This document shows positions 4,352 through 35,455 of a stretch of 38,037 nt of DNA, one piece after another. The stretch is from an uncultured Lachnospiraceae bacterium (GTDB taxonomy: Bacteria; Bacillota; Clostridia; Lachnospirales; Lachnospiraceae): contig CACZZH010000032.1 in the NCBI GenBank assembly GCA_902785635.1, positions 4,995 to 43,031 on the forward strand, in the 5' to 3' direction. Each line of letters opens with the position of its first letter. Positions within the stretch are counted from its first letter, which is position 1. Under the pieces are notes generated by a model, which worked only from the letters and a program-made list of their open reading frames with translations, was not told where the DNA came from and did no database searches. Both the position numbers and the translations under genes were made by a program.

Positions 4352-6163
4352 ATGAAAAAAAGAGCCGGACTGGCAGTGATACTGCTCTTTCTGATCAGTG
4401 CTCTTGGCGGGATTGCCCAGGCAAAAACGCTGACGGCCGCAGAGAAAGCAAAACTGAAGTATGCACAGTATCTGAACAGTCATTCTACCGAGGGAATGGA
4501 TGGGTATGTCGAGTATTTTGCAGCAGTGCTGCTGGACGACAATACGACTCCGGATCTGTTTGAGATGACGGACAAAGTGGCTTCCGTTTCATTCCTCAAC
4601 GGGGGCGCCTATAAGGGAACAGAGCGTGCCTGGGCGGACATGAAGGTCTTGTATTATATCTATCCGAAGACCGGTGTGTTTTCCTACAGCGTCTATGATT
4701 CGGACGGAAGCACACGGCCGGAATTCCTGTACCGCAGGCTGGTAGTGCGTACGAACGGGAAAAAAGATGTGTATGTTGCGAGCATGGTGCGCAATGACAA
4801 CGATGAGGATAAGTATTTTGACGGACCGAAAGAAAATACGGCCGCGCTTATCACAAAAGCAGAATTCAACAGCAACATTAAAGGATATACCGGCTCTGTA
4901 AAAGCGAAGAGGATCGTATTCTATGAGAATACGATCGAGAACCGCAAGAAATATCTCGGGGATACCGGTGAGATCGCATCGATCAGTCTGAGTCCTGTAT
5001 CGAAGACACTGGCGCTTAAAGAGACAGCCGTATTGACTGCAGCAGTAAAGAATGCGGATTCGTCTATAGTGTCCTGGGTATCCGATAATCCTAAGGTGGT
5101 CAGCGTAGAACCGGATTCCGAAAATGAGAATACGGCAGTCATCACTGCCAAAAAAGGAGGAATCGCTACCGTTACAGCATCCGTGAGCGGTGTGAGTGCA
5201 AGCTGCAAAGTGACAGTGGATGCGCCTTCGATCGAACTGGATCAGACATCCGCCGATCTGTTCATGGGGAAGACCCTTAAGCTGACGGCAGCTGTCACCG
5301 GTCCGTCCAAGACCGTCACATGGAAGAGCTCAAATGCTGCAGCAGCATCCGTGAGCGGCGGCGTGGTAACGGCAAAAAATGCTGGGAAGACCACGATCAC
5401 TGCGACTGCAAACGGCCTCACTGCCTCCTGCACAGTCAATGTGCGGGCCATGAAGGAAAACGTCACAAAGCTTACAGCTGTGAAAGCGGGCAAGACCTAC
5501 ATCATCAAATTCAGTGCTTCCGCAAATCCGGTCATCGTGACCCGGAAGGGCAATAAGCTTTATGTCGATGATAAAGCAGTCCTTACACTGCATGACGACT
5601 ATCCGGCATATGAGATCTATCTTACAGACCTCGATACCGATGACAGCACGAAGGAAGTGCTTGAACTGTACCGGGATGACAGCGGAAGATCTGCAGTGAA
5701 TGTTTACCGCTATGCTTCCGGAAAGCTTGCAAAGCAGGCGGGACTTTCCGGAAAGAAGGGGGCATCGGTCAGGACCGGTTTCGCCTATAAGAAAGGGCAG
5801 GTCGTAAAGACTCCCGGAAACGGCACGATCGTAACGCAGCAGGATCTCCTGCTGGGCGGCAAAGAGAAAGTCACCGTACAGATGAAGTATGAAGTGAACG
5901 GGAAAAAGATGCAGGTCATCCAGTACGATGAGGATGAAAGCATGACGCTCATGAGTGTCAAATCCACAAAAAATAAGCTGGGGAAGGCGCTGACGCTTCT
6001 GAAAAAACCGGGCAGTAAGACCGGCACTGTGAAATATAAGAAGAATACTTCCTATAAGCCGATGAAGCTGGCAGTCATGAACGGGAAAGCTTACCTGAAG
6101 GTCACGATCAAAGGAAAGAAAGGCTGGTTCGGGTTCGGCCTTTCAAATGTGGTCTATCAATAA
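4352..6163 (+). CDS. Secreted protein with two Big2 (Ig-like) domains
   Basis: A 603-residue exported protein with an N-terminal signal peptide (KKRAGLAVILLFLISALGGIAQA). A unique domain of about 180 residues follows, rich in Tyr and Asp, with no family recognised. Two bacterial Ig-like Big2 domains (about 208-290 and 291-365) carry the usual VSW.SDNP / VTWKSSNA and AGKTTITA patterns. The C-terminal part (about 370-603) begins with beta-rich segments containing an Asp-rich strand (LTDLDTDD). It lies 55 bases behind the LRR protein, with GGGAGG (4336-4341) before its ATG, so the two are probably co-transcribed and may act together at the cell surface. No sorting signal is present. Function not known. 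Confidence 0.85.
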   Translation: MKKRAGLAVILLFLISALGGIAQAKTLTAAEKAKLKYAQYLNSHSTEGMDGYVEYFAAVLLDDNTTPDLFEMTDKVASVSFLNGGAYKGTERAWADMKVLYYIYPKTGVFSYSVYDSDGSTRPEFLYRRLVVRTNGKKDVYVASMVRNDNDEDKYFDGPKENTAALITKAEFNSNIKGYTGSVKAKRIVFYENTIENRKKYLGDTGEIASISLSPVSKTLALKETAVLTAAVKNADSSIVSWVSDNPKVVSVEPDSENENTAVITAKKGGIATVTASVSGVSASCKVTVDAPSIELDQTSADLFMGKTLKLTAAVTGPSKTVTWKSSNAAAASVSGGVVTAKNAGKTTITATANGLTASCTVNVRAMKENVTKLTAVKAGKTYIIKFSASANPVIVTRKGNKLYVDDKAVLTLHDDYPAYEIYLTDLDTDDSTKEVLELYRDDSGRSAVNVYRYASGKLAKQAGLSGKKGASVRTGFAYKKGQVVKTPGNGTIVTQQDLLLGGKEKVTVQMKYEVNGKKMQVIQYDEDESMTLMSVKSTKNKLGKALTLLKKPGSKTGTVKYKKNTSYKPMKLAVMNGKAYLKVTIKGKKGWFGFGLSNVVYQ

Positions 6164-23646: not shown

Positions 23647-23907
23647 ATGAAAATGTGGGGAAAACTGTGGAAAAACAATCACATGCTGCGTGATACGGTC
23701 GTCACGATCGACGATGACGATACGCGCACACATAAGGTGTTCAAGGCGCTGGACGAGATCTGTCTGCAGTTTGATCTGGAGCGCCCGATCTGGCTTGAGA
23801 GCACCATCAAAGACTTTCAGCGGCGCAGCAAATGCCGGTTCGGCAGGGACTGCTTTATCGAGGAGAAGGACTTCGACTATCTTGAACTTCAGGTGCTGGA
23901 GGAGTAG
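23647..23907 (+). CDS. Small conserved-looking hypothetical protein
   Basis: An 86-residue acidic protein with no signal peptide or membrane segment. It has a basic start (MKMWGKLWKNNHML), an Asp-rich strand (VVTIDDDDTRTHK), a helix (KALDEICLQFDLERPIWLE), the motif RRSKCRFGRDCF with two cysteines, and an acidic end. I do not recognise a family. GGGAGAAGAGCC precedes the ATG and a plausible promoter lies upstream, which supports a real gene. Its last 19 bases overlap the end of the convergent AraC gene, so the two stop codons lie inside each other's reading frames. Confidence 0.72.
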   Translation: MKMWGKLWKNNHMLRDTVVTIDDDDTRTHKVFKALDEICLQFDLERPIWLESTIKDFQRRSKCRFGRDCFIEEKDFDYLELQVLEE

Positions 23908-24944
23908 GAGAGCGGGTTTCTGTTCTGCTGCTTTTTACGGTACTGCAGCGGGGTGACGCCGGTCCTGGCTTTGAAGACTCTCGAAAAGGAACTGATATTG
24001 CCGTAGCCTGCCATCTGGCTGATGATCTCCACCGAGTAATCTGTGTTGATCAGCAGTGCCTTTGCCTGTGTGATGCGTACGTGGGTAAGATAATCACTCA
24101 CGGACATATGCATCACTTCTTTGAAAAGATTGTAGAGCATCGTACGGGACATCAGAAACTCCCGTGCAATGTTGTCAACGGCAAGCTCTTCGGAATAATG
24201 TGTGTCAATATACTGGCGGATATCGGATACCGCCCGGGAATGTGCCTGATAGGAGGCCGTTTCCGGGCTTTTTTCCGTTCTGCGGATGATCCGGTGGATC
24301 AGCAGGAGCAGATGTCCCAGCTCCAGTCTTAAGAACAGGCGGTCCTCCGGAGGAAGGACAGAGGCATCTCCTTTAAGCGCATGGGGAAGCCCCTGGGAAA
24401 GCGCCGGAGAAGCTTCCGGGGAAAGTGCCGGGGAATCCTCCCGGGATGACAAAGCGGCCGGAACGGATGAAGGATCATGCTTATATGAAGACAGGTCTTC
24501 TGCGGCTGACGAGATCTGCGGATAGCAGGCGATCATCCGCTCCAGGATATCCCGGATAATGGAACGCTGCTGCGCATCCGGCAGAAGGATCTGGGCATCT
24601 CCGCGCCGGCGCAGAAAACAGTCCAGAAGATTGATCTCCGGGATTTGCAGATCCGAGATCAGATTGGACCGGAAATAGAGTACATACCGGTCGCAGTTTT
24701 TCCGGTCGTGTGTACAGTCGATATAGTGCAGCGACATGGAATCGAGCAGCAGGATCGCACCGGCCGGAATGCGCTGCGCTTTCGACTCGGTAAACAGAAC
24801 AAGGTTGTCCGACACGGTAAAGATGATCTCCAGATGGGAGTGAAGATGATACGTATTCTTTTCCGTAGAGAGCGCGATTTTGTGCTGAAGGTTCAGATCA
24901 CCGGGCAATATTTCCTGAAATTCCTGATAATCTCTGCGCGGCAT
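23889..24944 (-). CDS. AraC-family transcriptional regulator (hexuronate locus)
   Basis: About 351 residues. An N-terminal cupin-like sensor domain (about 1-140; HLHSHLEIIFTVSDNLVLF and AGAILLLDSMSLHYIDC) is linked to a C-terminal AraC double helix-turn-helix (about 245-345; DNIAREFLMSRTMLYNLFKEV and SVEIISQMAGYGNISSFSRVFK). Between them lies a low-complexity Ser/Pro/Ala/Leu stretch (SPALSPEASPALSQG), encoded by locally repetitive DNA and unusual for the family. ATG 24944 follows GAGAGGAT; the longer frame from 25070 runs through its own promoter. It is divergent from dctP and is the best candidate for the activator recognising the direct repeats at 25057-25088 and 29320-29351. Confidence 0.9.
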   Translation of the reverse strand: MPRRDYQEFQEILPGDLNLQHKIALSTEKNTYHLHSHLEIIFTVSDNLVLFTESKAQRIPAGAILLLDSMSLHYIDCTHDRKNCDRYVLYFRSNLISDLQIPEINLLDCFLRRRGDAQILLPDAQQRSIIRDILERMIACYPQISSAAEDLSSYKHDPSSVPAALSSREDSPALSPEASPALSQGLPHALKGDASVLPPEDRLFLRLELGHLLLLIHRIIRRTEKSPETASYQAHSRAVSDIRQYIDTHYSEELAVDNIAREFLMSRTMLYNLFKEVMHMSVSDYLTHVRITQAKALLINTDYSVEIISQMAGYGNISSFSRVFKARTGVTPLQYRKKQQNRNPLSYSSST

Positions 24945-25011: not shown

Positions 25012-25040
25012 ATTATAACGAATTCGGTATGTTTTGTCCC
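25012..25040 (-). promoter_or_regulatory. Promoter of the AraC gene
   Basis: On the minus strand: GGGACA (25035-25040), 17-bp spacer, TATAAT (25012-25017). The -35 lies 16 bases from the first activator half-site of the divergent dctP promoter, so autoregulation is plausible. Confidence 0.6.
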
Positions 25041-25056
25041 AAAAACTGTGAACGAT

Positions 25057-25111
25057 CTGCAAAAAATCAAAGCAGTACTGCAAATTATTCCGGAGGATAG
25101 TTGGCTATCAT
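25057..25111 (+). promoter_or_regulatory. Activator-type promoter of dctPQM with two direct-repeat half-sites
   Basis: Half-sites CTGCAAAAAAT (25057-25067) and CTGCAAATTAT (25078-25088) are 21 bp apart. The second overlaps a non-consensus -35 (AATTAT, 25083-25088). A 17-bp spacer and TATCAT (25106-25111) follow. The whole arrangement is repeated ahead of the gene at 29470. Direct repeats about two helical turns apart next to the -35 are typical of AraC-type activators. Confidence 0.75.
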
Positions 25112-25162
25112 GTAATCACATAGAGTAAACGTTTTCCTAAAATGATTACAGGAGGTAAACAA

Positions 25163-26164
25163 ATGAACGCAAGAAAGATGACGGCAGTGATGTTTGCAGC
25201 AGCTGCGCTGGCAGGAATGGGAACCATGACGGCGATGGCCGATGATCCGGTCGTACTGGTGTTCTCCGAGACCAATTCCATTGATTCGATCGACGGACAG
25301 TATGCACAGTTTTTTAAGGACAAGGTAGAGGAACTGACGGACGGCGCGGTGACGATCGACATTCAGGCCAGCGGCGTGCTTGGTACGGAAGCTGATGTTC
25401 TGGACGGTATGATCTCCATGAGCGGTACAGTGGACATCGTGCGTTTCTCCTGCTACGCATTCAGCAACTACGGCTGCAAGGAATCCGCGCTTCTGGGCCT
25501 GCCCTTTGTGTTTGAGAGCAGCGAGCATTTCTGGAATTTCGCCAATTCCGATCTGGGACAGGAGATCCTGGCGGAGCCGCAGAACAACGGTCTGGGCGTG
25601 ACTGGCCTGTACTATCTGGAGGATGGTTTCCGCAGCTTTTTCTTCAAGGATGAGGTTGCAGGGATCGAGGATCTGAAGGGTAAGAAGCTCCGTGTATCCA
25701 GCGACCAGATCATGACCGGTATGGTGGAAGGTCTTGGCGCATCTCCGACGGTCGTAAACTTCAATGAGCTGTACACCAGCCTGCAGTCCGGTGTTGTGGA
25801 CGGTGCGGAGCAGCCGATCCCGCAGTATGAGTCCAATGCGTTCAACGAAGTTGCCCCTTACATGCTGCTTGATGAGCACACCCTGGCTACCTCCTCTGTT
25901 GTGATCGCGGATGACTCTCTGGCGAAGCTTACGCAGGAGCAGCAGGATGCTCTGTTCGAGGCAGGAAAAGCGACCGAAGAGTTCTGCCGCCAGATGTCTG
26001 TGGAAGAAGCTGAGAAGGCAAAGGCAAGCCTGACCGAAAAGGGCGTTACCTTTATCGAAGTGGAAGACAAGACTCCTTATCGTGAAGCCTGCGCCGACCT
26101 GATCGGACAGTTCACCAGCGGCATTGAAGATAAATATGAGGGGATCCTCACCCTGGCAGAGTGA
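25163..26164 (+). CDS. dctP: TRAP transporter substrate-binding protein, DctP
   Basis: A 334-residue extracytoplasmic receptor of a tripartite ion-driven importer. The signal peptide (about 1-25) ends in TAMA-DD, with no lipobox cysteine. The DctP core is clear: DGAVTIDIQASGVLGTE, IEDLKGKKLRVSSDQIMTG with the conserved carboxylate-binding Arg, GASPTVVNFNELYTSLQSGVVDGAEQP, and LTQEQQDALFEAGK. CAGGAGGTAAAC precedes ATG 25163. The neighbouring galacturonate genes suggest a hexuronate as substrate. It is separated from dctQ by a large hairpin, which may set the receptor in excess over the membrane subunits. Confidence 0.95.
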   Translation: MNARKMTAVMFAAAALAGMGTMTAMADDPVVLVFSETNSIDSIDGQYAQFFKDKVEELTDGAVTIDIQASGVLGTEADVLDGMISMSGTVDIVRFSCYAFSNYGCKESALLGLPFVFESSEHFWNFANSDLGQEILAEPQNNGLGVTGLYYLEDGFRSFFFKDEVAGIEDLKGKKLRVSSDQIMTGMVEGLGASPTVVNFNELYTSLQSGVVDGAEQPIPQYESNAFNEVAPYMLLDEHTLATSSVVIADDSLAKLTQEQQDALFEAGKATEEFCRQMSVEEAEKAKASLTEKGVTFIEVEDKTPYREACADLIGQFTSGIEDKYEGILTLAE

Positions 26165-26237
26165 TCGATCCGACGGATCCGGTGATCTGACAGACTGATG
26201 TATTTGCTGCGGAAGCCTTAGAAAATGAGCCGGAGTA

Positions 26238-26294
26238 AAAATGCCCTGCATTCATTCCCATATGACGCATATGAAAGTGGATGCAGGGCATTTT
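26238..26294 (+). terminator. Intercistronic hairpin between dctP and dctQ
   Basis: A perfect 14-bp stem, AAAATGCCCTGCAT / ATGCAGGGCATTTT, encloses an inner CATATG/CATATG palindrome. A short T tract forms the end of the stem. It is likely a partial terminator or mRNA stabiliser. Confidence 0.75.
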
Positions 26295-26347
26295 CTGCCG
26301 AAACGAAGGTGCGGTATAAACTGCTGCTTTAGAAAGGAAAGAGCTGT

Positions 26348-26860
26348 ATGGCGGATAAAATCGAATCTTTATTTGACAAACTGTATGCGGCGGTCATGGT
26401 CCTGTGCAAACTGTTCCTGATCGCGGACGTACTGATCACTTCATATGCCGTGCTCGGAAGATATGTCGGAAAGTATATTCCGTTCCTCGATGATCCGTCC
26501 TGGAGCGAAGAGATCGTACTGACCTGTATGGTCTATATGGCGTTTCTGAGTGCAGCGCTGGCGATCCGGAAAGGAACGCATATCCGTATGACATCCCTGG
26601 ACCAGTATCTTCCGAAGAAGGTCCTGTTCGTACTGGATCTGCTGGCCTACATCCTTGTGCTGGCATTTTCTGTGATCCTGGTGTACCAGGGCTTTAAGTT
26701 CGCAACGACCATCGGAGCCAGAGCTTCCTATACGAGTCTGCCCTGGCTGTCCAAGTTCTGGCAGTACGCACCGGTACCGCTCTCAGGCATCGCGATGGTG
26801 CTGTTTCAGCTGGAAGTGATCTATAAACATATCACCGGGAGAGGGGGAAAAGAAGAATGA
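26348..26860 (+). CDS. dctQ: TRAP transporter small permease, DctQ
   Basis: A 170-residue membrane protein with four predicted helices (near 13-35, 53-75, 93-115, 133-153). It carries the DctQ features YVGKYIPFLDDPSWSEEIVL and ALAIRKGTHIRM. It pairs with DctM to form the membrane part of the importer, driven by a sodium or proton gradient. GAAAGGAAAGAGCTGT precedes the start. Its end overlaps the dctM start by 4 bases (ATGA). Confidence 0.93.
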   Translation: MADKIESLFDKLYAAVMVLCKLFLIADVLITSYAVLGRYVGKYIPFLDDPSWSEEIVLTCMVYMAFLSAALAIRKGTHIRMTSLDQYLPKKVLFVLDLLAYILVLAFSVILVYQGFKFATTIGARASYTSLPWLSKFWQYAPVPLSGIAMVLFQLEVIYKHITGRGGKEE

Positions 26861-28152
26861 CGACTAATCCGACCGCGATCGCTATTCTGGTAGGGTCATT
26901 TCTGATCATGATCCTGCTGAGGATCCACATTGCCTATGCAGTAGGAATCGCCTCCACGCTCTGTCTGCTGTACCTGGGCATTCCCCTGAGCAATATCTGT
27001 CAGCAGATGGTGAAGGGACTGTTTTCCTTTTCTCTGATGGCAGTGCCGTTCTTTATTACGATGGGATGCCTGATGGGCCAGGGAGGTATTTCGGACAAAC
27101 TGATCGCACTGGCGAATTCCCTGGTGGGATGGATGCACGGCGGGCTTGCAATGGTCAATATCGTTGCGTCCTATTTCTTTGGCGGGATCTCCGGTTCGGC
27201 TACGGCGGACACGGCATCCATCGGAAAGCTGATGATCCCGATGATGGTAGACGCCGGCTACGATGATGACTTTTCCACAGCCGTAACGATCACATCCTCT
27301 GTGGAGGGCCTGCTGGTCCCGCCCAGCCATAATATGGTGATCTATGCGACCGCTGCAGGCGGCGTTTCGGTGGGTGCCCTGTTCATGGCCGGATATCTGC
27401 CCGGCGCGCTGCTGGCTATTTCCCTGATGATCGGCTCCTATGTGATCTCCATGAAACGGAACTACCCCCGCGGGGACCGTTTCTCAATGAAGGTGTTTTT
27501 AAAGCAGCTCGGCAAGTCCATTTGGGCACTGCTGGCGATCCTGATCGTAGTGGTCGGTGTGGTGTGCGGCGTATTTACCGCTACGGAATCGGCTGCGATC
27601 GCAGTTATATACAGTCTGGTCATCAGCCTTGCGGTCTACCGCGAAATGAACTGGAAAGGCGTATGGAAGGTCCTGGGAGACTGCATTGATACGCTGGCGA
27701 TCGTCCTGATCCTGTGCGGGACATCGAGTATTTTCGGATACTGCCTGACCTATCTGCATGTGCCGGATCTGGCGGCAAATGCGATTACCAGCCTTACCTC
27801 CAACAAGATCCTTCTGACGCTGCTGATCAACGCGATCCTGCTTTTCCTGGGCTGCATCATGGATATGGCTCCGATCATTCTGATCGCCACGCCCATCCTG
27901 TATCCGCTGGCATCCTCCATCGGGATCGGTGCCGTTCAATTCGGTGTGATGATGATCCTGAACTGCGGTATCGGACTGCTGACGCCTCCGGTGGGAAGCT
28001 GCCTGTTCATCGGATCTGCCGTATCCGGCGTGAAGATCGAGCGGATCGTAAAAGCAACGCTGCCGTTTTATCTGTGCATGATCGCTGTACTGATGCTGAT
28101 CAGCTTCGTACCGGCGATCAGTATGGTCATCCCGCATCTGTTCGGATACTGA
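26857..28152 (+). CDS. dctM: TRAP transporter large permease, DctM
   Basis: A 431-residue protein with about twelve membrane helices of the ion-transporter superfamily. Family features are GGISGSATADTASIGKLMIPMM, VPPSHNMVIYA and the late NCGIGLLTPPVGSCLFIGSAV. It forms the translocation channel with DctQ and the receptor DctP. GGGAGAGGGGGAAAAGA precedes the start. The LacI-type regulator follows 54 bases later and may be co-transcribed. Confidence 0.95.
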   Translation: MTTNPTAIAILVGSFLIMILLRIHIAYAVGIASTLCLLYLGIPLSNICQQMVKGLFSFSLMAVPFFITMGCLMGQGGISDKLIALANSLVGWMHGGLAMVNIVASYFFGGISGSATADTASIGKLMIPMMVDAGYDDDFSTAVTITSSVEGLLVPPSHNMVIYATAAGGVSVGALFMAGYLPGALLAISLMIGSYVISMKRNYPRGDRFSMKVFLKQLGKSIWALLAILIVVVGVVCGVFTATESAAIAVIYSLVISLAVYREMNWKGVWKVLGDCIDTLAIVLILCGTSSIFGYCLTYLHVPDLAANAITSLTSNKILLTLLINAILLFLGCIMDMAPIILIATPILYPLASSIGIGAVQFGVMMILNCGIGLLTPPVGSCLFIGSAVSGVKIERIVKATLPFYLCMIAVLMLISFVPAISMVIPHLFGY

Positions 28153-28206
28153 TACAGGATCTGCAATTTTTGACACATTGATACAGGATTTACGAAGAGG
28201 CTTTAC

Positions 28207-29346
28207 ATGGGAAGCAGAGTGACGATCAAAGACATAGCCAGGAGTACCGGCACATCTGTTGCATCCGTCCACCGTGCGCTGCACGGAGGAAGCGGCGTGG
28301 GAGAAGATCTTCGGCGGCGCATCCTGGAGGAAGCACAGCGGAGCCACTATCAGATCGATGAATCCGCATCGCTTCTGAGGCGGAGTATGATACAGATCAC
28401 CGTACTCCTGCCGAAACCCGAAAAAAACGAGCGGTTTTACTACGGCGGACTGTGGCAGGGAATCACCCGGGAAGCAGCACGGCTGCAGAAGGCAAAAGCC
28501 CGGATCCGGATGATCGGGACCGATTACGGGGTGGATCAGTTCTCCCATGCACTTGAGAAGCTTTACGACGAGTCCGCTATGATGAATGAGAAGATCGACG
28601 GGCTCGTGACCATCTGTGATGATGAAGAATCCGCTGCATGGATCACCAGATTTATCCGGAGGGGAACAGCGGTGGCGCTTGTGGACCGCTCTCTGCCGAT
28701 CAATGGAATCACCTGCTGTGCAGAGGTATCCGTGGAGGATATGGGAAAGACGGCAATGGAGCTGGCCGGTCTGTACAGCCGCGGGAAAGGCACCCCAAAA
28801 GATATCCGGGACGGACGGAGGAAGATCATCCTGATCAACAGCTCCAGGCACCGCAGCAGTACGAAGGTTTTTTCCGGAGCTGCCAGAAAAAGGCTGCAGG
28901 AGGAATGGCATGCAGATCCGCCCAGTCTGGTCGAGTACCATGAAACGGAGGAAGCCAGGGTGAGAGCGAATCTGCGCAGTATGCTGCAGGATGACCCGCC
29001 TGAGGCGGTGATCTCGGCAAGCGCGCGAGCGACCTTCTGGGTGTGTGATGAGATCGCGCGTTTTTACAGGGAGAATCCCGGAAGGATCCGGGAACGGCCG
29101 CCGGTGATCGGTACGGATCTGTTTCCCGAACAGGAGGAGTTCTTTGAAGACGGGACACTCAAAGCTGTGATCTACCAGTCTCATCTGACCAGCGGTGAGC
29201 ATTGCCTGAGCCACCTGTTTGACCATCTGGTCGGCCTGGACCGCTCCTGCGGGACGATCCTTCACCAGCCGCTGTGCATTATCATGAAGGACAACTACCG
29301 GTCGTTTCTTCCGGACGATCTGCAAAAAAACAAAGTGATTTCGTAA
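28207..29346 (+). CDS. LacI-family transcriptional regulator behind the TRAP genes
   Basis: A 379-residue protein. An N-terminal LacI helix-turn-helix (VTIKDIARSTGTSVASVHRALHGG, about 5-28) precedes a substrate-binding domain (ITVLLPKPEKNERFYYGGLWQGI ..., from about 62). The ASVHRALHG form of the recognition helix and the YYGGLWQGI segment suggest the subgroup with a LacI DNA-binding domain and a sugar-binding periplasmic type 4 domain. GAAGAGGCTTTAC lies before ATG 28207. It may act as repressor or co-regulator of the galacturonate operon. Its last codons contain the first activator half-site, and its stop codon the second half-site, of the promoter driving the next gene. Confidence 0.9.
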   Translation: MGSRVTIKDIARSTGTSVASVHRALHGGSGVGEDLRRRILEEAQRSHYQIDESASLLRRSMIQITVLLPKPEKNERFYYGGLWQGITREAARLQKAKARIRMIGTDYGVDQFSHALEKLYDESAMMNEKIDGLVTICDDEESAAWITRFIRRGTAVALVDRSLPINGITCCAEVSVEDMGKTAMELAGLYSRGKGTPKDIRDGRRKIILINSSRHRSSTKVFSGAARKRLQEEWHADPPSLVEYHETEEARVRANLRSMLQDDPPEAVISASARATFWVCDEIARFYRENPGRIRERPPVIGTDLFPEQEEFFEDGTLKAVIYQSHLTSGEHCLSHLFDHLVGLDRSCGTILHQPLCIIMKDNYRSFLPDDLQKNKVIS

Positions 29347-29374
29347 ATTATCGGAAGACGGCTTTTCATATAAT
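29320..29374 (+). promoter_or_regulatory. Activator-type promoter of the UroD-like/uxa operon
   Basis: Half-sites CTGCAAAAAAA (29320-29330) and TCGTAAATTAT (29341-29351) are 21 bp apart; -35 AATTAT (29346-29351), 17-bp spacer, TATAAT (29369-29374). Bases 29315-29335 match 25052-25072 at 20 of 21 positions, and AAATTAT follows after 9 bases in both. It overlaps the 3' end of the LacI-type gene. Confidence 0.75.
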
Positions 29375-29469: not shown

Positions 29470-30600
29470 ATGGACATTCGCAAATATCTGGAGGATCTGG
29501 AGAACCGTCTGGATGAGCAGCAGGAGGAGCGGCTTCTTGCCGATTATTACCGGTTTGCTGACCGGCAGATGAAGGACGTAAGCTATTTCAAACCGGAGCG
29601 TGTTCCTGCTCCGAGTCTTGTGGAATGGGAGCCGGTCTTTTTCAACGATACCTTTGAAGACTATGACATGATGCTCTACAAGCAACTGCTTCGGGCTAAT
29701 GACCAGCTCGCGAGCGGGGGAGGAGAACTCCTTTCCTTCCGCTCCAACTTCGGGATCGGGCTGATTCCGAGCATGCTTGGCTGTGAAGTGCGGCTTATGC
29801 CCAGGGAGCAGGACGCCCTTCCCGGAGCGATCCATCTGGAATGGGATCAGATCCTGAAGATCAATGAAGATTTCCACGCCGGGATCAAACCGGATGTACG
29901 CAGCGGTCTGGGACAGAAAACGATCGATGCTGCCCACCATGCGGAAAAACTGCTGGAAGACTATCCGAAGCTGAAAAAGTACCTGCATATTTACCAGCCG
30001 GATACGCAGGGCCCCTGCTCGCTGGTGGAAGCGATCGTGGGCAGCGATTTTTATCTGATGCTGCTGGAGGAAGAGGATGAGATCAATGACTTCATCGAGG
30101 TAGTGACCGACACCTTCATCCGCTACATGCAGTTGTGGAAGGAAGAATTCCCCTTCTGCAAAGGGGAATATGCCTGGGACTACGGTCTGCTTTACAAGGG
30201 CGGCATCATGATCCGTGAAGATGCCTGCACGAATATCTCCGGAAGCATGTATGAGGAATTTTTCCAGGAGGCGGACCAGAAGATCCTGGATGCATTCGGC
30301 GGCGGAGCTGCGCATTTCTGCGGACACGGCGATCATCTTCTGAAAGCGTTCTCTCAGTTGAAAGGACTTACCGCCATCAATATGTCCCAGCCGGACATGA
30401 ATGATATGGACGGGATCGTATATCCCAACACGATCGAGAAGGACATTCAGATCATCGGCATGCCGAAATTCGAAGCAAGACGCTGTGACCGCAAAGGAAT
30501 CGACCTGAAGGGAATGGTGCATGTGGGCATCTGCGTGGCTGCATGGATGGGAGAACCGGAAGTCGATCCCCGCGGAAAACCACTTCTATACTATTATTAA
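29470..30600 (+). CDS. Uroporphyrinogen-decarboxylase-like protein of unknown role
   Basis: A 376-residue soluble protein whose overall pattern fits the URO-D/corrinoid-methyltransferase superfamily. It has an N-terminal helical part, the barrel strand SFRSNFGIGLIPSMLGC, then HIYQPDTQGPCSLVEAIVG, and AHFCGHGDH (His282, Cys284, His286) at the position where methyltransferases of this group bind zinc. It is not a heme-pathway UroD: no heme genes are near. No corrinoid protein is encoded in the window. It is the first gene after the conserved activator promoter, ahead of uxaB, uxaC, uxaA and kdgK, so a task in hexuronate use is likely, for example handling a methylated or otherwise modified uronate. 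That role is inference. Confidence 0.68.
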   Translation: MDIRKYLEDLENRLDEQQEERLLADYYRFADRQMKDVSYFKPERVPAPSLVEWEPVFFNDTFEDYDMMLYKQLLRANDQLASGGGELLSFRSNFGIGLIPSMLGCEVRLMPREQDALPGAIHLEWDQILKINEDFHAGIKPDVRSGLGQKTIDAAHHAEKLLEDYPKLKKYLHIYQPDTQGPCSLVEAIVGSDFYLMLLEEEDEINDFIEVVTDTFIRYMQLWKEEFPFCKGEYAWDYGLLYKGGIMIREDACTNISGSMYEEFFQEADQKILDAFGGGAAHFCGHGDHLLKAFSQLKGLTAINMSQPDMNDMDGIVYPNTIEKDIQIIGMPKFEARRCDRKGIDLKGMVHVGICVAAWMGEPEVDPRGKPLLYYY

Positions 30601-30694: not shown

Positions 30695-32185
30695 ATGGAA
30701 AAGCTTAATTACAAGGTTCTGGAAGGTTCCGGCTATCAGGGATATATTCTGAAGGACGCGCCGGAGAAGATCATGCAGTTCGGGGAAGGCAATTTCCTCC
30801 GGGCATTCGTGGATTACTGGTTCGATATGTCCAACGAACGCGTGGGATGGAACGGAAAAGCAGTACTGGTACAGCCCATCGCGATGGGATTGACAAAGCT
30901 GATCAATGAGCAGGAGGGTCTGTATACGCTGTATCTGCGCGGATCCGAAAAGGGTCAGAAAGTGGATGACAAGCGTGTGATCTCCTCTGTGAGCCGCTGC
31001 ATCAACCCCTATGATGAAGATGGCTGGAAGGCCATGATGGAACTGGCGGTATCGGATGACCTGGAATATGTGGTTTCCAATACGACCGAGGCCGGTATTG
31101 TATATGATCCGGCCTGCCAGCCGGAGGACAGACCGGCATCTTCCTTCCCGGGCAAGCTTACACAGGTGCTGTACGAGCGTTTTAAGGCAGGCAAAGCTCC
31201 GCTGGTGATCCTCTCCTGTGAGCTGATCGACAACAACGGCAAGGAGCTGGAGAAATGCGTCGGTCAGTATATTGATCAGTGGGGACTGCCGGAGGCATTT
31301 AAGGAGTGGTGTGCGTCCTGCACCTTCTGCTCCACACTGGTGGACCGTATCGTGCCCGGACGTATCCGCGACCCGAAGGAAAAGGAAGCCCTGGATCAGG
31401 CGAACGGATATCTGGATGAACTGCTCGACGTCGGCGAGTGCTTCGGCGTATGGATCATCGAGGGACCGCAGTGGCTGGAGGAGAAGCTTCCCTTCAAGGC
31501 AGCCGGCCTGAATGTACATGTGGTGCCGGATGTGACGCCCTATAAGAAGAGAAAGGTGCGCATCCTGAATGGTGCCCACACCGGTTTCGTGCTTGGCGCC
31601 TACCTGGCGGGCTTCGACATCGTGCGTGACTGCATGCATGATGAGACCGTGAAGGGCTTCATGAACAAAATGCTGAATGAGGAGATCATCCCTACTCTGC
31701 CGCTGGACAAGAAGGATCTGATGGAATTCGCCGCGGCGGTGGAAGACCGCTTCAACAATCCGTTCGTAAACCATGAGCTGATGAGCATCAGCCTGAATTC
31801 CACCTCCAAGTGGAAAGCCCGCAATATGCCGTCCTTCCTGGCATACATCGAGGAAAAGGGTGAACTGCCGGTGTGCCTGACCATGTCTCTGGCAGCCTAT
31901 ATCGCATTTTATTCCAATGACATTCAGGAGCGGACCGAGAAAGGCCTTGTGTGCCGCAGAAGCGCAGGCAATGAATACACGGTCAGTGATGATGCCTGGG
32001 CACTGGATTTCTATTATGCGCACAAGGATGACACTCCGGAGGAGCTGGTACATGCAGTGCTGACCAATGAGCAGATGTGGGATCAGGATCTTACAAAGAT
32101 CGCGGGCCTGGAAGAAGCCGTCGTATGTGACCTGAAGAAGATCCGCAGCGAAGGCGCAAAAGCTGCCTACGCATCCTGTCTGTAA
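30695..32185 (+). CDS. uxaB: Tagaturonate reductase (altronate oxidoreductase)
   Basis: A 496-residue enzyme of the mannitol dehydrogenase family that reduces D-tagaturonate to D-altronate with NADH. QFGEGNFLRAFVDYW (about 26-40) is the nucleotide-binding start used by UxaB. VHVVPDVTPYKKRKVRILNGAHTGFV carries the conserved Lys and Asn-Gly-x-His catalytic segment (about 275-300). The C-terminal half has FNNPFVNHEL and SLNSTSKWKARNMPSF, typical of this branch rather than UxuB. GGAACAGGAG precedes the start. It is followed by uxaC and uxaA in pathway-relevant order. Confidence 0.94.
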   Translation: MEKLNYKVLEGSGYQGYILKDAPEKIMQFGEGNFLRAFVDYWFDMSNERVGWNGKAVLVQPIAMGLTKLINEQEGLYTLYLRGSEKGQKVDDKRVISSVSRCINPYDEDGWKAMMELAVSDDLEYVVSNTTEAGIVYDPACQPEDRPASSFPGKLTQVLYERFKAGKAPLVILSCELIDNNGKELEKCVGQYIDQWGLPEAFKEWCASCTFCSTLVDRIVPGRIRDPKEKEALDQANGYLDELLDVGECFGVWIIEGPQWLEEKLPFKAAGLNVHVVPDVTPYKKRKVRILNGAHTGFVLGAYLAGFDIVRDCMHDETVKGFMNKMLNEEIIPTLPLDKKDLMEFAAAVEDRFNNPFVNHELMSISLNSTSKWKARNMPSFLAYIEEKGELPVCLTMSLAAYIAFYSNDIQERTEKGLVCRRSAGNEYTVSDDAWALDFYYAHKDDTPEELVHAVLTNEQMWDQDLTKIAGLEEAVVCDLKKIRSEGAKAAYASCL

Positions 32186-32252: not shown

Positions 32253-33671
32253 ATGAAGCGTTTTATGGATGAAGAATTTTTGCTGACAACTCCGGCAGCA
32301 CAGAAGCTTTATCACAGCTATGCGGAGCATATGCCGATCCTGGATTATCATTGCCACATCAATCCGCAGGAGATCTGCGAGGATCGCCGGTTTGATAATA
32401 TCACCCAGGTGTGGCTGGGCGGAGATCATTATAAATGGCGTCTGATGCGCAGCGCCGGTGTGGATGAAAAATACATCACGGGCGATGCCAGCGACCGCGA
32501 AAAATTCCAGAAATGGGCGGAAACGATCGAAATGGGCATCGGAAACCCGCTCTATCACTGGAGCCATCTGGAACTGAAGCGCTACTTCGGTTACGAAGGC
32601 ATCCTGAACGGCCGCACTGCGCAGGAGGTGTGGGACCTTTGCAACGACAAGCTGCAAAATGATCCGAATATGACCGTGCGCGGCCTGATCCGCCAGTCCG
32701 GCGTGACACTGATCTGCACCACCGATGATCCGGTGGATACACTGGAATATCACGAGCGCCTGGCGAAGGATGACAGCTTTGAAGTACAGGTGCTGCCGGC
32801 CTGGCGTCCGGATAAGGCAATGAACCTGGAGCAGGAGCCGTATCCGGAATATATCGCAAAGCTCGAAAGCGTGAGCGGCGTGAAGATCGACAGCTTCAAA
32901 GCCCTGATGGAAGCGCTGAAGGTACGTATGGAATTCTTCGCGCAGCATGGCTGCAGTGTGTCGGATCATGCGCTGGAATATGTCATGTACGCTCCGGCCG
33001 GTGAGGAGGAGATCGAAGCGATCTTCCGTAAGAGACTGGAAGGCGGAAAGATCTCCCGTGAAGAGGAGATGAAGTTCAAGACTGCCTACATGATCTGCCT
33101 CGGAAAAGAATATCACCGCCGCGGCTGGGTGATGCAGCTGCACTACGGCTGCAAGCGCAACAACAATGCGCAGATGTATCAGCAGCTGGGTCCGGACACC
33201 GGGTACGACTGCATCAACAACTACGCGCCGAGCGCGCAGATGGCGGATTTCCTGAATGCCCTCATCTCAACGGATGATCTGCCCAGGACGATCCTTTATT
33301 CGCTCAATCCGTACGACAACGCATCCATCGGCACCATCCTCGGATGCTTCCAGGACAGCAGCGCAGTGGCGAAGATTCAGCAGGGAAGCGCCTGGTGGTT
33401 CAATGATCACAAGGTAGGCATGACGGAACAGATGACGACCCTGGCAAACCTTGGATATCTGGCCGGCTTTGTGGGAATGCTCACGGATTCGCGCAGCTTC
33501 CTGTCCTACACCCGTCATGAGTACTTCCGCCGCGTCATGTGCGCGCTGCTCGGACGGTGGGTAGAGGACGGAGAGTATCCGGATGATGAAGTTGCACTGG
33601 AGAAGATCGTCAAAGGCATCTGCTATAATAATGCCGTGAAATACTTCGGATTTGATCTGGAGACGAAATAA
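32253..33671 (+). CDS. uxaC: Uronate isomerase
   Basis: A 472-residue metal-dependent isomerase of the amidohydrolase superfamily. It converts galacturonate to tagaturonate, and glucuronate to fructuronate. The N-terminal metal-binding HxH is seen at His33 and His35 in DYHCHINPQEI. Other family features are GGDHYKWRLMR, TTDDPVDTLEYH, and RGWVMQLHYGCKRNNN. Length is as usual. GAGGATAAGAAC lies before the ATG. No uxuA/uxuB genes are adjacent, so the galacturonate branch is the one encoded here. Confidence 0.96.
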   Translation: MKRFMDEEFLLTTPAAQKLYHSYAEHMPILDYHCHINPQEICEDRRFDNITQVWLGGDHYKWRLMRSAGVDEKYITGDASDREKFQKWAETIEMGIGNPLYHWSHLELKRYFGYEGILNGRTAQEVWDLCNDKLQNDPNMTVRGLIRQSGVTLICTTDDPVDTLEYHERLAKDDSFEVQVLPAWRPDKAMNLEQEPYPEYIAKLESVSGVKIDSFKALMEALKVRMEFFAQHGCSVSDHALEYVMYAPAGEEEIEAIFRKRLEGGKISREEEMKFKTAYMICLGKEYHRRGWVMQLHYGCKRNNNAQMYQQLGPDTGYDCINNYAPSAQMADFLNALISTDDLPRTILYSLNPYDNASIGTILGCFQDSSAVAKIQQGSAWWFNDHKVGMTEQMTTLANLGYLAGFVGMLTDSRSFLSYTRHEYFRRVMCALLGRWVEDGEYPDDEVALEKIVKGICYNNAVKYFGFDLETK

Positions 33672-33726
33672 GAGACAGCGGTCATCCCTGCGCGGGGTGA
33701 CTGCTTTTCATAGAAGGGAGAACAGC

Positions 33727-35259
33727 ATGGGAAACCTGCTTCGAATCCATGAAAGAGACAATGTTGCAGTAGCGCTCTCCCCCATTGAGGCGGGGGAGTG
33801 CCTGCCCTTTGGCGGGCAGGGAACCGCAAAGGAGCGACAGGACGCGGCCCTGACCGTGACAGCGGCGGAGGCGATTCCGCAGGGCCATAAGGTTGCGCTG
33901 GAGGATATCCCGGCCGGAGCACCGGTCATCAAATACGGTTTTCCGATCGGGCATGCCACAAAGGATATTCCGAAGGGAAGCTGGGTGCATACACACAATA
34001 TGGCCACCAATCTGGAGGGAGAGGTGGAGTATACATACGATCCGGAAAAGGCGCCTGCCTGGGATCCTTCACAGGTGCCTGGCGGTGAAGTTCCGACCTT
34101 CCGGGGGTATCTGCGTCCGGACGGGCGGGCAGCGATCCGCAATGAGATCTGGATCATCCCCACGGTGGGCTGCGTAAACGGCGTGATCAAGTCCCTGACG
34201 GAACAGAATCAGGACCTGGTGACCGGAAACATTGACGGACTTTACGCATTCCCGCACCCCTTCGGCTGCTCTCAGACCGGGGCGGATCATGCACAGACCA
34301 GAAAGCTTCTCGCGGCGCTGGTCAATCATCCGAACGCCGGAGCCGTACTGGTGGTCGGCCTTGGCTGCGAAAACCTCACCCACGAGCAGTTCGTCGCGGA
34401 ACTGGGGGATTATGATCCGGAACGAGTGAAATTCATGATCTGCCAGGAAGAGGAGGATGAGCTTGCAAAAGGCGCAGAGCTCCTGAAAGAATGTGCTGCA
34501 TACGCCGGGCAGTTTTCCAGACAGAGCATTCCGGCCGATAAGCTTGTGATCGGCATGAAGTGCGGCGGCTCGGACGGCCTCTCCGGAATCACAGCCAATC
34601 CGGCTGTAGGCGCATTCAGCGATATGCTTTGCGCGCAGGGAGGGACGACCATCCTGACGGAGGTTCCCGAGATGTTCGGCGCAGAGGGAATGCTGATGTG
34701 CCGGTGCGCGGATAAAGAGGTCTTTGAAAAGGCAGTGGCGATGCTCAACGGCTTTAAACAGTATTTTATCCGGCACGGCGAGGTCGTTTATGACAATCCA
34801 AGCCCCGGCAACAAGCAGGGCGGCATCACAACGCTCGAGGACAAGAGCTGCGGATGTGTACAGAAGGGCGGCGACGCTCCGATAGTGGATGTACTGGGTT
34901 ACGGCGATCAGGTGCACACAAAGGGACTGAACCTGCTGTACGGCCCGGGCAACGATCTGGTGTCCTCGACGGCCCTGACCGCGGCGGGATGCCACATGGT
35001 GCTTTTTACCACCGGACGCGGTACGCCGTTCGGAGCTCCCGCACCGACCGTAAAGGTGGCGACCAATCAGCGCCTGTTCCATCATAAGGGCAGCTGGATG
35101 GACTTCAATGCCGGTACGATCGCGGAAGGAGAGAGCGTGGCCGATGCCGGAAAGCGGCTCTATGAGCTGGTACTGGAGGTGGCTTCGGGCAAAAAGACCT
35201 GGTCGGAGCAGAAAGGATACAGGGAGATCTCCATATTTAAAGACGGAATCGTCCTGTAA
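33727..35259 (+). CDS. uxaA: Altronate dehydratase
   Basis: A 510-residue iron-dependent dehydratase that turns D-altronate into 2-keto-3-deoxygluconate. It has an N-terminal SAF domain (about 1-95; GHKVALEDIPAG, GWVHTHNMATNLEG). The UxaA catalytic part follows, with TVGCVNGVIK, HPFGCSQTGADHAQT, MKCGGSDGLSGITANPAVG and VFTTGRG-like segments. Cys and His residues for metal binding are plentiful. ATG 33727 follows GAAGGGAG; an upstream in-frame ATG inside uxaC (33652) lacks a ribosome site. It sits between uxaC and kdgK. Confidence 0.95.
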   Translation: MGNLLRIHERDNVAVALSPIEAGECLPFGGQGTAKERQDAALTVTAAEAIPQGHKVALEDIPAGAPVIKYGFPIGHATKDIPKGSWVHTHNMATNLEGEVEYTYDPEKAPAWDPSQVPGGEVPTFRGYLRPDGRAAIRNEIWIIPTVGCVNGVIKSLTEQNQDLVTGNIDGLYAFPHPFGCSQTGADHAQTRKLLAALVNHPNAGAVLVVGLGCENLTHEQFVAELGDYDPERVKFMICQEEEDELAKGAELLKECAAYAGQFSRQSIPADKLVIGMKCGGSDGLSGITANPAVGAFSDMLCAQGGTTILTEVPEMFGAEGMLMCRCADKEVFEKAVAMLNGFKQYFIRHGEVVYDNPSPGNKQGGITTLEDKSCGCVQKGGDAPIVDVLGYGDQVHTKGLNLLYGPGNDLVSSTALTAAGCHMVLFTTGRGTPFGAPAPTVKVATNQRLFHHKGSWMDFNAGTIAEGESVADAGKRLYELVLEVASGKKTWSEQKGYREISIFKDGIVL

Positions 35260-35267
35260 ACAGGAAA

Positions 35268-35386
35268 TACAGGAAACGGTGCACATCCGGAAGATGTGGA
35301 CATGGAGTACAGGAAACGGTGCACATCCGGAAGATGCGGACGTGGGATACAGGAAACGGTGCACATCCGGAAATGTGGACGTGGAA
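35268..35386. repeat. Three 40-bp direct tandem repeats between uxaA and kdgK
   Basis: Units start at 35268, 35308 and 35348 (40, 40 and 39 bp; the third lacks one base). Each contains TACAGGAAACGGTGCACATC and can form a small hairpin, CACATC / GATGTG with centre CGGAA, weaker in the second unit. There is no spacer variation, so it is not a CRISPR. The array fills most of the gap before the kdgK ribosome site. Confidence 0.9.
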
Positions 35387-35455
35387 TAACGGCAGGACAG
35401 TCACGTGATCGTGGAATGTCCGGAGGATCTGCGGGAGAGGAGAAGGAGGAAGAAT

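Follow-up and report, generated by a model that had tools for sequence, protein, structure and literature searches.

Two promoters of a hexuronate gene cluster in an uncultured Lachnospiraceae bacterium were found to share one arrangement of direct repeats, here analysed in a 38,037-nt stretch of DNA (the window) from a 3.64 Mb assembly in 328 contigs that is 79% complete. One promoter precedes dctP, which encodes the solute-binding protein of a tripartite ATP-independent periplasmic (TRAP) transporter, and the other precedes a UroD-like gene. From these sequences we infer that a single AraC-type protein, encoded at 23889-24944 on the minus strand, very probably binds both sites and activates an uptake unit and a breakdown unit. 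The layout and spacing of the sites, their conservation and their co-occurrence with the regulator gene were established here.

Each site spans 60 bases on the plus strand, at 25052-25111 upstream of dctP (site A) and at 29315-29374 upstream of the UroD-like gene (site B). The two have 20 of the first 21 bases and all seven of AAATTAT in common, as a preliminary description of this DNA had reported; their 9-base gaps differ, and they are identical at 36 of the 60 positions overall. Site A reads ACGATCTGCAAAAAATCAAAG, CAGTACTGC, AAATTAT, 17 bases and TATCAT, and site B reads ACGATCTGCAAAAAAACAAAG, TGATTTCGT, AAATTAT, 17 bases and TATAAT. The distal 21-base block of site A (25052-25072) contains a half-site CTGCAAA (25057-25063), an A-tract and CAAAG, and has counterparts in the related loci L061 and L063 and in genome G398. 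The proximal half-site, again CTGCAAA (25078-25084), runs into the -35 position AATTAT (25083-25088), which is separated by a 17-base spacer from the -10 box TATCAT of the dctP promoter (25106-25111). In site B the distal block (29315-29335) carries CTGCAAA at 29320-29326, the proximal half-site TCGTAAA (29341-29347) runs into AATTAT (29346-29351), and a 17-base spacer leads to the -10 box TATAAT of the UroD-like promoter (29369-29374). The pairs can be written as CTGCAAA-N14-CTGCAAA for A and CTGCAAA-N14-TCGTAAA for B, and the period of exactly 21 bp that had been claimed is present in both. AATTAT matches TTGACA at none of six positions, counted by eye, in agreement with the poor -35 described previously.

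The resemblance between the two sites exceeds chance. Sites A and B agree at 27 of 28 compared positions, and the best same-strand pairs in 30 first-order Markov copies of the window reached 21-24 of 28. The top pair returned for the real window, also with 27/28 (one top pair is returned, with ties unlisted), corresponds to a 40-bp tandem repeat at 35266-35388, which is located directly 3' of the uxaA-like gene of the cluster and has three copies with 90% matches. In the host assembly, at its 79% completeness, the pattern CTGCAAA-N14-HNGNAAATTAT matched sites A and B only.

Relatives were collected with the UroD-like protein, searched as an alignment of two rows, which yielded 21 loci, six of them close (L061 to L066, 77 to 94% identical) and labelled as Lachnospiraceae in four cases, Blautia sp. 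in one and Eubacterium sp. in one. The half-sites were conserved upstream of dctP, as CTGCAAA-N14-YTGCAAA, in four of seven genomes (window, L061, L063 and G398, the genome of L062), and a pair was found upstream of the UroD-like gene in three of seven (window, L063 with CTGCAAA-N14-GCGTAAA, and L061 in degenerate form). The refuting outcome named in the preliminary description, absence of the half-sites from close relatives, did not occur in the nearer ones. A genome-wide pattern search of the seven genomes gave 26 matches, of which six were 5' of dctP or the UroD-like gene (two each in G000 and G399, one each in G397 and G398). When the flanks of the other 20, including 11 in G402, were fetched and compared by tblastn, none showed a connection to these genes; the matches at L094 (G402) and L084 (G401) were examined and no link was seen. 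Six of the 14 matches in G000, G397, G398 and G399 being at target genes corresponds to a binomial P of about 3e-21, a value that is partly circular, since some of those sites had gone into the design of the pattern, and that leaves out the 12 matches of G401 and G402. Only the G398 match was blind in this search: it lies on a previously unseen contig, 5' of an orthologue of dctP with 87-89% identity, and this genome has a clear dctP site there and only weak candidates elsewhere.

Seven sites were available for comparison of the promoter elements (two each in the window, L061 and L063, one in G398). In all seven, the best -10-like hexamer (sought at offsets 26 to 32) has at least 5 of 6 matches and an offset of 28 or 29 bases from the first base of the second half-site, and the -35 position reaches no more than 1 to 3 of 6 (spacers 16 to 18). 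In L061 the araC-dctP region contains large insertions relative to the window, yet conservation extends over the block that runs from the site to the ribosome-binding site. The composition of the distal block, which is A-rich in the seven listed versions, could also be read as an UP element contacted by the alpha subunit of RNA polymerase, so that the region would hold a promoter and no regulator site. UP elements act about 20 bases upstream of the -35 position, and the A-tract is located at about that distance. However, in the four dctP sites each A-run is preceded by a TGC that is repeated with a period of exactly 21 bp, for which an UP element has no need, and the essentially absent -35 hexamer suits an activator-dependent promoter, making this explanation very unlikely.

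Site B overlaps the end of a LacI/GalR-type regulator gene (28207-29346, plus strand), the stop codon TAA of which is at 29344-29346, and its DNA encodes the LacI tail DDLQKNKVIS, confirming that the second site lies within the 3' end of this gene. The associated proposal that coding and regulatory constraint overlap is weak: the last codons and the stop are covered by the site in the window and L061, but the LacI protein tail is unconserved and the L063 gene ends about 70 bases 5' of the site. The conserved element is the site, rather than the LacI tail. It could be argued that site B is a by-product of LacI coding, or that both blocks derive from a recent duplication, without regulatory meaning, since the site encodes protein and a 20/21 match could arise by duplication. 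This is the least credible of the alternatives weighed here, given the unconserved tail, the location of the L063 site in non-coding DNA with a -10-like hexamer at the same offset, and the recurrence of paired sites in separate genomes.

The spacing was evaluated with a matrix built from the window's four half-sites only, which was applied to 11 upstream regions of L061 to L066 at spacings of 12 to 33, with 500 shuffles each. Spacing 21 was an outlier, with a summed z of 6.45 (the next was 17, with 3.55), and was the best in four of the 11 regions, those of dctP and the UroD-like gene in both L061 and L063 (p 0.002 to 0.012). The G398 site alone gave p 0.001. A scan with the matrix plus a -10 box over 833,764 positions (window, L061-L081 and L054-L057, both strands) produced eight hits, namely the two training sites of the window, two in L061, two in L063, one in L062 and one in G256. 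The hit at L062:569 was inside a 288-codon reading frame and was taken as chance.

The AraC/XylS-type regulator encoded divergently from dctP has a cupin-like N-terminal domain and two helix-turn-helix motifs. Its DNA-binding part matched the Pfam profiles HTH_18 (2.4e-22) and HTH_AraC (2e-18) above their cutoffs and was matched in all seven orthologues, while AraC_binding was below cutoff in the window protein (E 0.0054) and was detected in 7/7 orthologues at E up to 1 (best 1.6e-8). A structure model computed with seven sequences was of moderate confidence (mean predicted local distance difference test 72, predicted template modelling score 0.59). For the N-terminal part of the model the structural matches are regulatory domains of RhaR and E. 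coli AraC (TMt mostly between 0.6 and 0.7; 0.71 for 2arc_A); those for the C-terminal part are DNA-binding domains of the AraC type (TMt between 0.74 and 0.93). Over the whole length, the highest-ranked structures (Rns, ToxT and CsvR) had TMt of 0.40 or less and a high root-mean-square deviation, so the arrangement of the two domains is not fixed by the model.

An araC orthologue was present in all seven cluster loci (window and L061 to L066, the six relatives at 40 to 83% by tblastn), but its position varies, being divergent from dctP in the window and L061, from lacI in L062 and L063, and from the UroD-like gene in L064, L065 and L066. The protein is rare. It was detected in 3/397 genomes of the family at E 1e-25 (window, G149 and G256), in 2/13 genomes of the genus at E 1e-40, the second of which appears to be the L061 genome, and in 1/391 genomes of the class at E 1e-42; the family and class counts scored at most five first-look candidates per genome and may miss members, while the genus count scored all. 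Such a distribution bears on whether another AraC-type protein or a response regulator encoded elsewhere binds the sites. The genome contains many loose candidates (33 at first look with an AraC profile), but this AraC is rare in its genus and is found in the cluster in 7/7 loci, and in both G256 and G149 a similar site accompanies one of its relatives; we regard a regulator from elsewhere as highly improbable.

In G256 the site, ACGCAAA-N14-ATGCAAA with TACAAT, is flanked on one side by a gene, truncated at the contig end, that encodes an AraC relative (38% over query residues 5-140), and on the other by a divergently oriented gene run containing dctP. This dctP (57%) is the best-scoring one outside the window's genome in the family search, and the site is 3.6 kb upstream of it, at the head of the operon. 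The recurrence of the layout in G256, together with the araC orthologues in all seven loci and the AraC- and RhaR-like domains, supports the earlier interpretation of the layout as that of an AraC-type activator with its gene divergent from dctP. In G149 an AraC cousin (49% over residues 202-339) precedes an ATP-binding cassette (ABC) transporter permease gene, and ACGCAAA and CTGCAAA are found 20 bp apart, with TATAAT at an offset of 28 bases from where the second begins. The run divergent from the AraC relative of G256 (L054 1239-6408) comprises a class-V aminotransferase, a SufE-domain gene, a fucose-isomerase-like gene, dctP and a small TRAP-like gene. Small genes without Pfam hits, alike by eye, are divergent from the AraC relatives in both G149 (L022 432-1106) and G256 (L054 5995-6408).

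Several observations weigh against the assignment of these sites to the AraC protein, or narrow it. The proximal half of site B (TCGTAAA) is a degenerate copy, weaker than the preliminary description implied, and the UroD-like site of L061 is degenerate as well (CTGCATA-N14-GTGTAAA). Spacing 21 was not the best in seven of the 11 regions (L062 lacI, L062 UroD-like, L063 lacI, L064 UroD-like, L065 UroD-like, L065 dctP and L066 UroD-like), and the G149 site does not fit unless 20 bp is accepted as a spacing (p 0.002 at 20-22 bp, against 0.48 at 21 bp). In L065, where dctP is 3' of the UroD-like gene, no CTGCAAA pair was detected 5' of either gene, and none was detected 5' of the UroD-like gene in L064 and L066, though an araC orthologue is present in all three; nor was one seen by eye in the 189 bases 5' of dctP in G402. 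The two-unit regulon predicted for this locus is thus represented by both sites in the window and L063 and by both in L061, one of them degenerate, with no clear pair in L064, L065 and L066. Pairs of the GTCA type with 21-bp spacing were picked post hoc in L062, L065 and L066 (none by eye in L064) and do not count as evidence.

The motif also proved unsuitable as a regulon finder by itself. A strict pattern including the -10 box had 31 matches in 30 of the 397 family genomes; its reversed pattern gave 0 matches but contains CpG, making it a poor control. Among the 30 loci fetched, 27 matches were within stop-free stretches of at least 136 codons, the window's own among them, and an AraC-type gene was found (local profile, flanks of about 1.5 kb) at one, again the window's own, for which reason the motif alone was rejected for this use. 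Relatives of dctP occur in 33/397 family genomes at E 1e-50, and in the 29 non-window loci fetched no matching site was present directly 5' of dctP, the best composite score being 17/24 vs 23 for the window.

A further point against the AraC assignment, and the main confounder for it, is that the four of seven genomes with clear CTGCAAA pairs in this cluster are the same four that contain the LacI gene of the cluster. The LacI-type protein matched Pfam LacI with E 8.6e-5, below the curated cutoff, and Peripla_BP_4 with 1.9e-11, above cutoff. Its orthologue is present in G000, G397, G398 and G399 and missing from the more diverged genomes G400 (where dctP is interrupted by a contig end), G401 and G402. 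The preliminary description missed a LacI/cre-like sequence, TAAACGTTTTCCT, in the dctP leader at 25126-25138 (plus strand), 15 bases after the -10 box. One exact copy was found in each of G000, G397, G398 and G399, always in the dctP leader (window, L061, L063 and L109), and none in G400, G401 or G402 in the genome-wide pattern search of the seven genomes, so that the sequence follows the LacI gene in 7/7; L062 also has a variant of it in its lacI leader. A control with the pattern reversed yielded single matches in G000 and G397 and none in the other five, and since one chance match per genome is therefore possible, the case is carried by the dctP-leader position in 4/4. A near-palindrome scan of 14 leaders, which was too strict for describing the LacI operator, returned a full palindrome only in the L062 lacI leader and one weak match in L064. 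The shared distribution suggests a link between this sequence and the local LacI, and TAAACGTTTTCCT can be regarded as its candidate operator, with a CcpA site as the alternative. After the operator, the dctP leader of L063 contains, at about 4553-4587, an inverted repeat of 15 bases, perfect as judged by eye, CCTAAAATGATTACG-GAACA-CGTAATCATTTTAGG, not present in the window, which could be a hairpin or a doubled operator.

The coincidence in distribution is what favours binding of the direct repeats by the LacI-type protein instead of AraC. LacI/GalR operators, however, are palindromes with a central CG, unlike these direct repeats, and TAAACGTTTTCCT is a better candidate operator with the same distribution. 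For a galacturonate-linked LacI protein of a relative, too, cre-like palindromes are described (PMC5171806). In addition, G149 has the AraC cousin and a similar site with no LacI orthologue at E 1e-10 or better, and the G256 site adjoins an AraC relative (LacI was not searched in G256). The G149 site and the direct-repeat symmetry favour AraC over LacI, and recognition of the repeats by LacI seems highly doubtful.

Genes of the locus were named by Pfam and NCBIfam profile searches. A promoter-like site for araC, GGGACA-17-TATAAT (25012-25040, minus strand), which comes from a consensus scan alone, adjoins site A. On the plus strand, dctP (25142-26164; Pfam DctP 1.4e-59) is followed by dctQ (26348-26860; Pfam 2.6e-28), dctM (26857-28152; Pfam 9.9e-113) and the LacI-type gene. 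The UroD-like gene (29470-30600) encodes a protein weakly like MtaA/CmuA methyltransferases (NCBIfam 2.2e-6, below cutoff), with no Pfam match at 0.001. It precedes genes for a tagaturonate reductase (uxaB-like, 30695-32185; NCBIfam NF002969 1.2e-168), glucuronate isomerase (uxaC, 32253-33671; Pfam UxaC 2.6e-209) and a member of the altronate/galactarate dehydratase family (uxaA-like, 33652-35259; Pfam GD_AH_C 4.4e-101, with the NCBIfam galactarate dehydratase match below cutoff). Hexuronate genes adjoin the UroD-like gene in L061-L064 too. Relatives of the UroD-like protein at 31-42% were found in 15 further loci, including metagenome-assembled genomes of Phycisphaerae, Lentisphaerae, Verrucomicrobia and Chloroflexi.

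Under the AraC assignment, a dimer of the protein would occupy two half-sites of the same orientation, 21 bp or two helical turns apart, with the proximal half-site covering the -35 position. The promoter itself lacks a usable -35 hexamer, and AraC would recruit RNA polymerase to it. Such binding would jointly switch on dctPQM, with the lacI gene downstream, for uptake, and the UroD-like-uxaB-uxaC-uxaA unit for breakdown; the membership of these operons is itself predicted. The signal would most likely be a hexuronate or its product, as suggested by uxaB, uxaC and uxaA, and the operator just after the dctP start point may add repression, presumably by the local LacI. A broader proposal, which we consider evenly balanced, is that a rare Lachnospiraceae AraC subclade recognises TGCAAA tandem repeats of about 21 bp and travels with sugar-acid TRAP units (in one case an ABC unit), and that four genomes combine it with a local LacI repressor having its operator just after the start point, so that uronate uptake would need both activation and derepression.

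The layout has counterparts in known systems. The E. coli araBAD half-sites I1 and I2 have a 21-bp register and contact with the -35. As there, the half-sites found here point in the same direction, and the N-terminal domain of the model resembles 2arc; the half-site sequence and the ligand are different, and a distal O2-like loop site was not looked for. Motifs of the form TAGC-N7 are given for E. coli AraC in published passages. The XylS site is described in passages of PMC4514859 and PMC5481539 as TGCA-N6-GGNTA-N6-TGCA-N6-GGNTA, two direct 15-bp repeats with a 21-bp period, and a title cited in those sources states that the XylS and RNA polymerase sites overlap. As far as these passages go, site A can be compared with the Pm promoter of Pseudomonas putida, being writable as TGCA-N6-CAAAG-N6-TGCA with the same period, but the second box GGNTA is not found here, aromatics are replaced by uronates and the host is Lachnospiraceae-like. 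An A-tract also follows the first repeat of MtlR in the source passages.

According to passages of PMC8579813, PecR, PecR2 and HemR of Caldicellulosiruptor bescii have tandem-repeat sites upstream of promoters and are read as activators, repeats having been sought at 21- or 32-bp periodicity. In contrast to the locus described here, these passages have the AraC-family regulators act on pectate lyases and ABC transporters and place the tagaturonate genes under the DeoR-type UxaR (PMC8579813); they also describe LacI operators that coincide with or follow start points. In Clostridium phytofermentans, also a member of the Lachnospiraceae, the LacI/GalR protein Cphy2742 is described as linked to galacturonate genes, with cre-like operators at or after start points (PMC5171806), a placement like that of TAAACGTTTTCCT. 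No AraC partner appears in the passages on Cphy2742, and the likeness to the LacI of this cluster is one of operator placement.

No published description of an AraC-type regulator of uronate TRAP genes, or of this AraC subclade, was found among the listed results of searches of open-access papers. The proposed AraC control is well supported but of an ordinary kind, leaving the picture of AraC-type activator action unchanged. The analysis shows that phylogenetic footprinting in related genomes can confirm a pair of sites first spotted in raw sequence. Uronates released from pectin are an important food of gut-type Lachnospiraceae, and for uncultured members of this group the locus offers concrete candidates for the regulator that governs uptake and breakdown of uronates, for its site and for its regulon.

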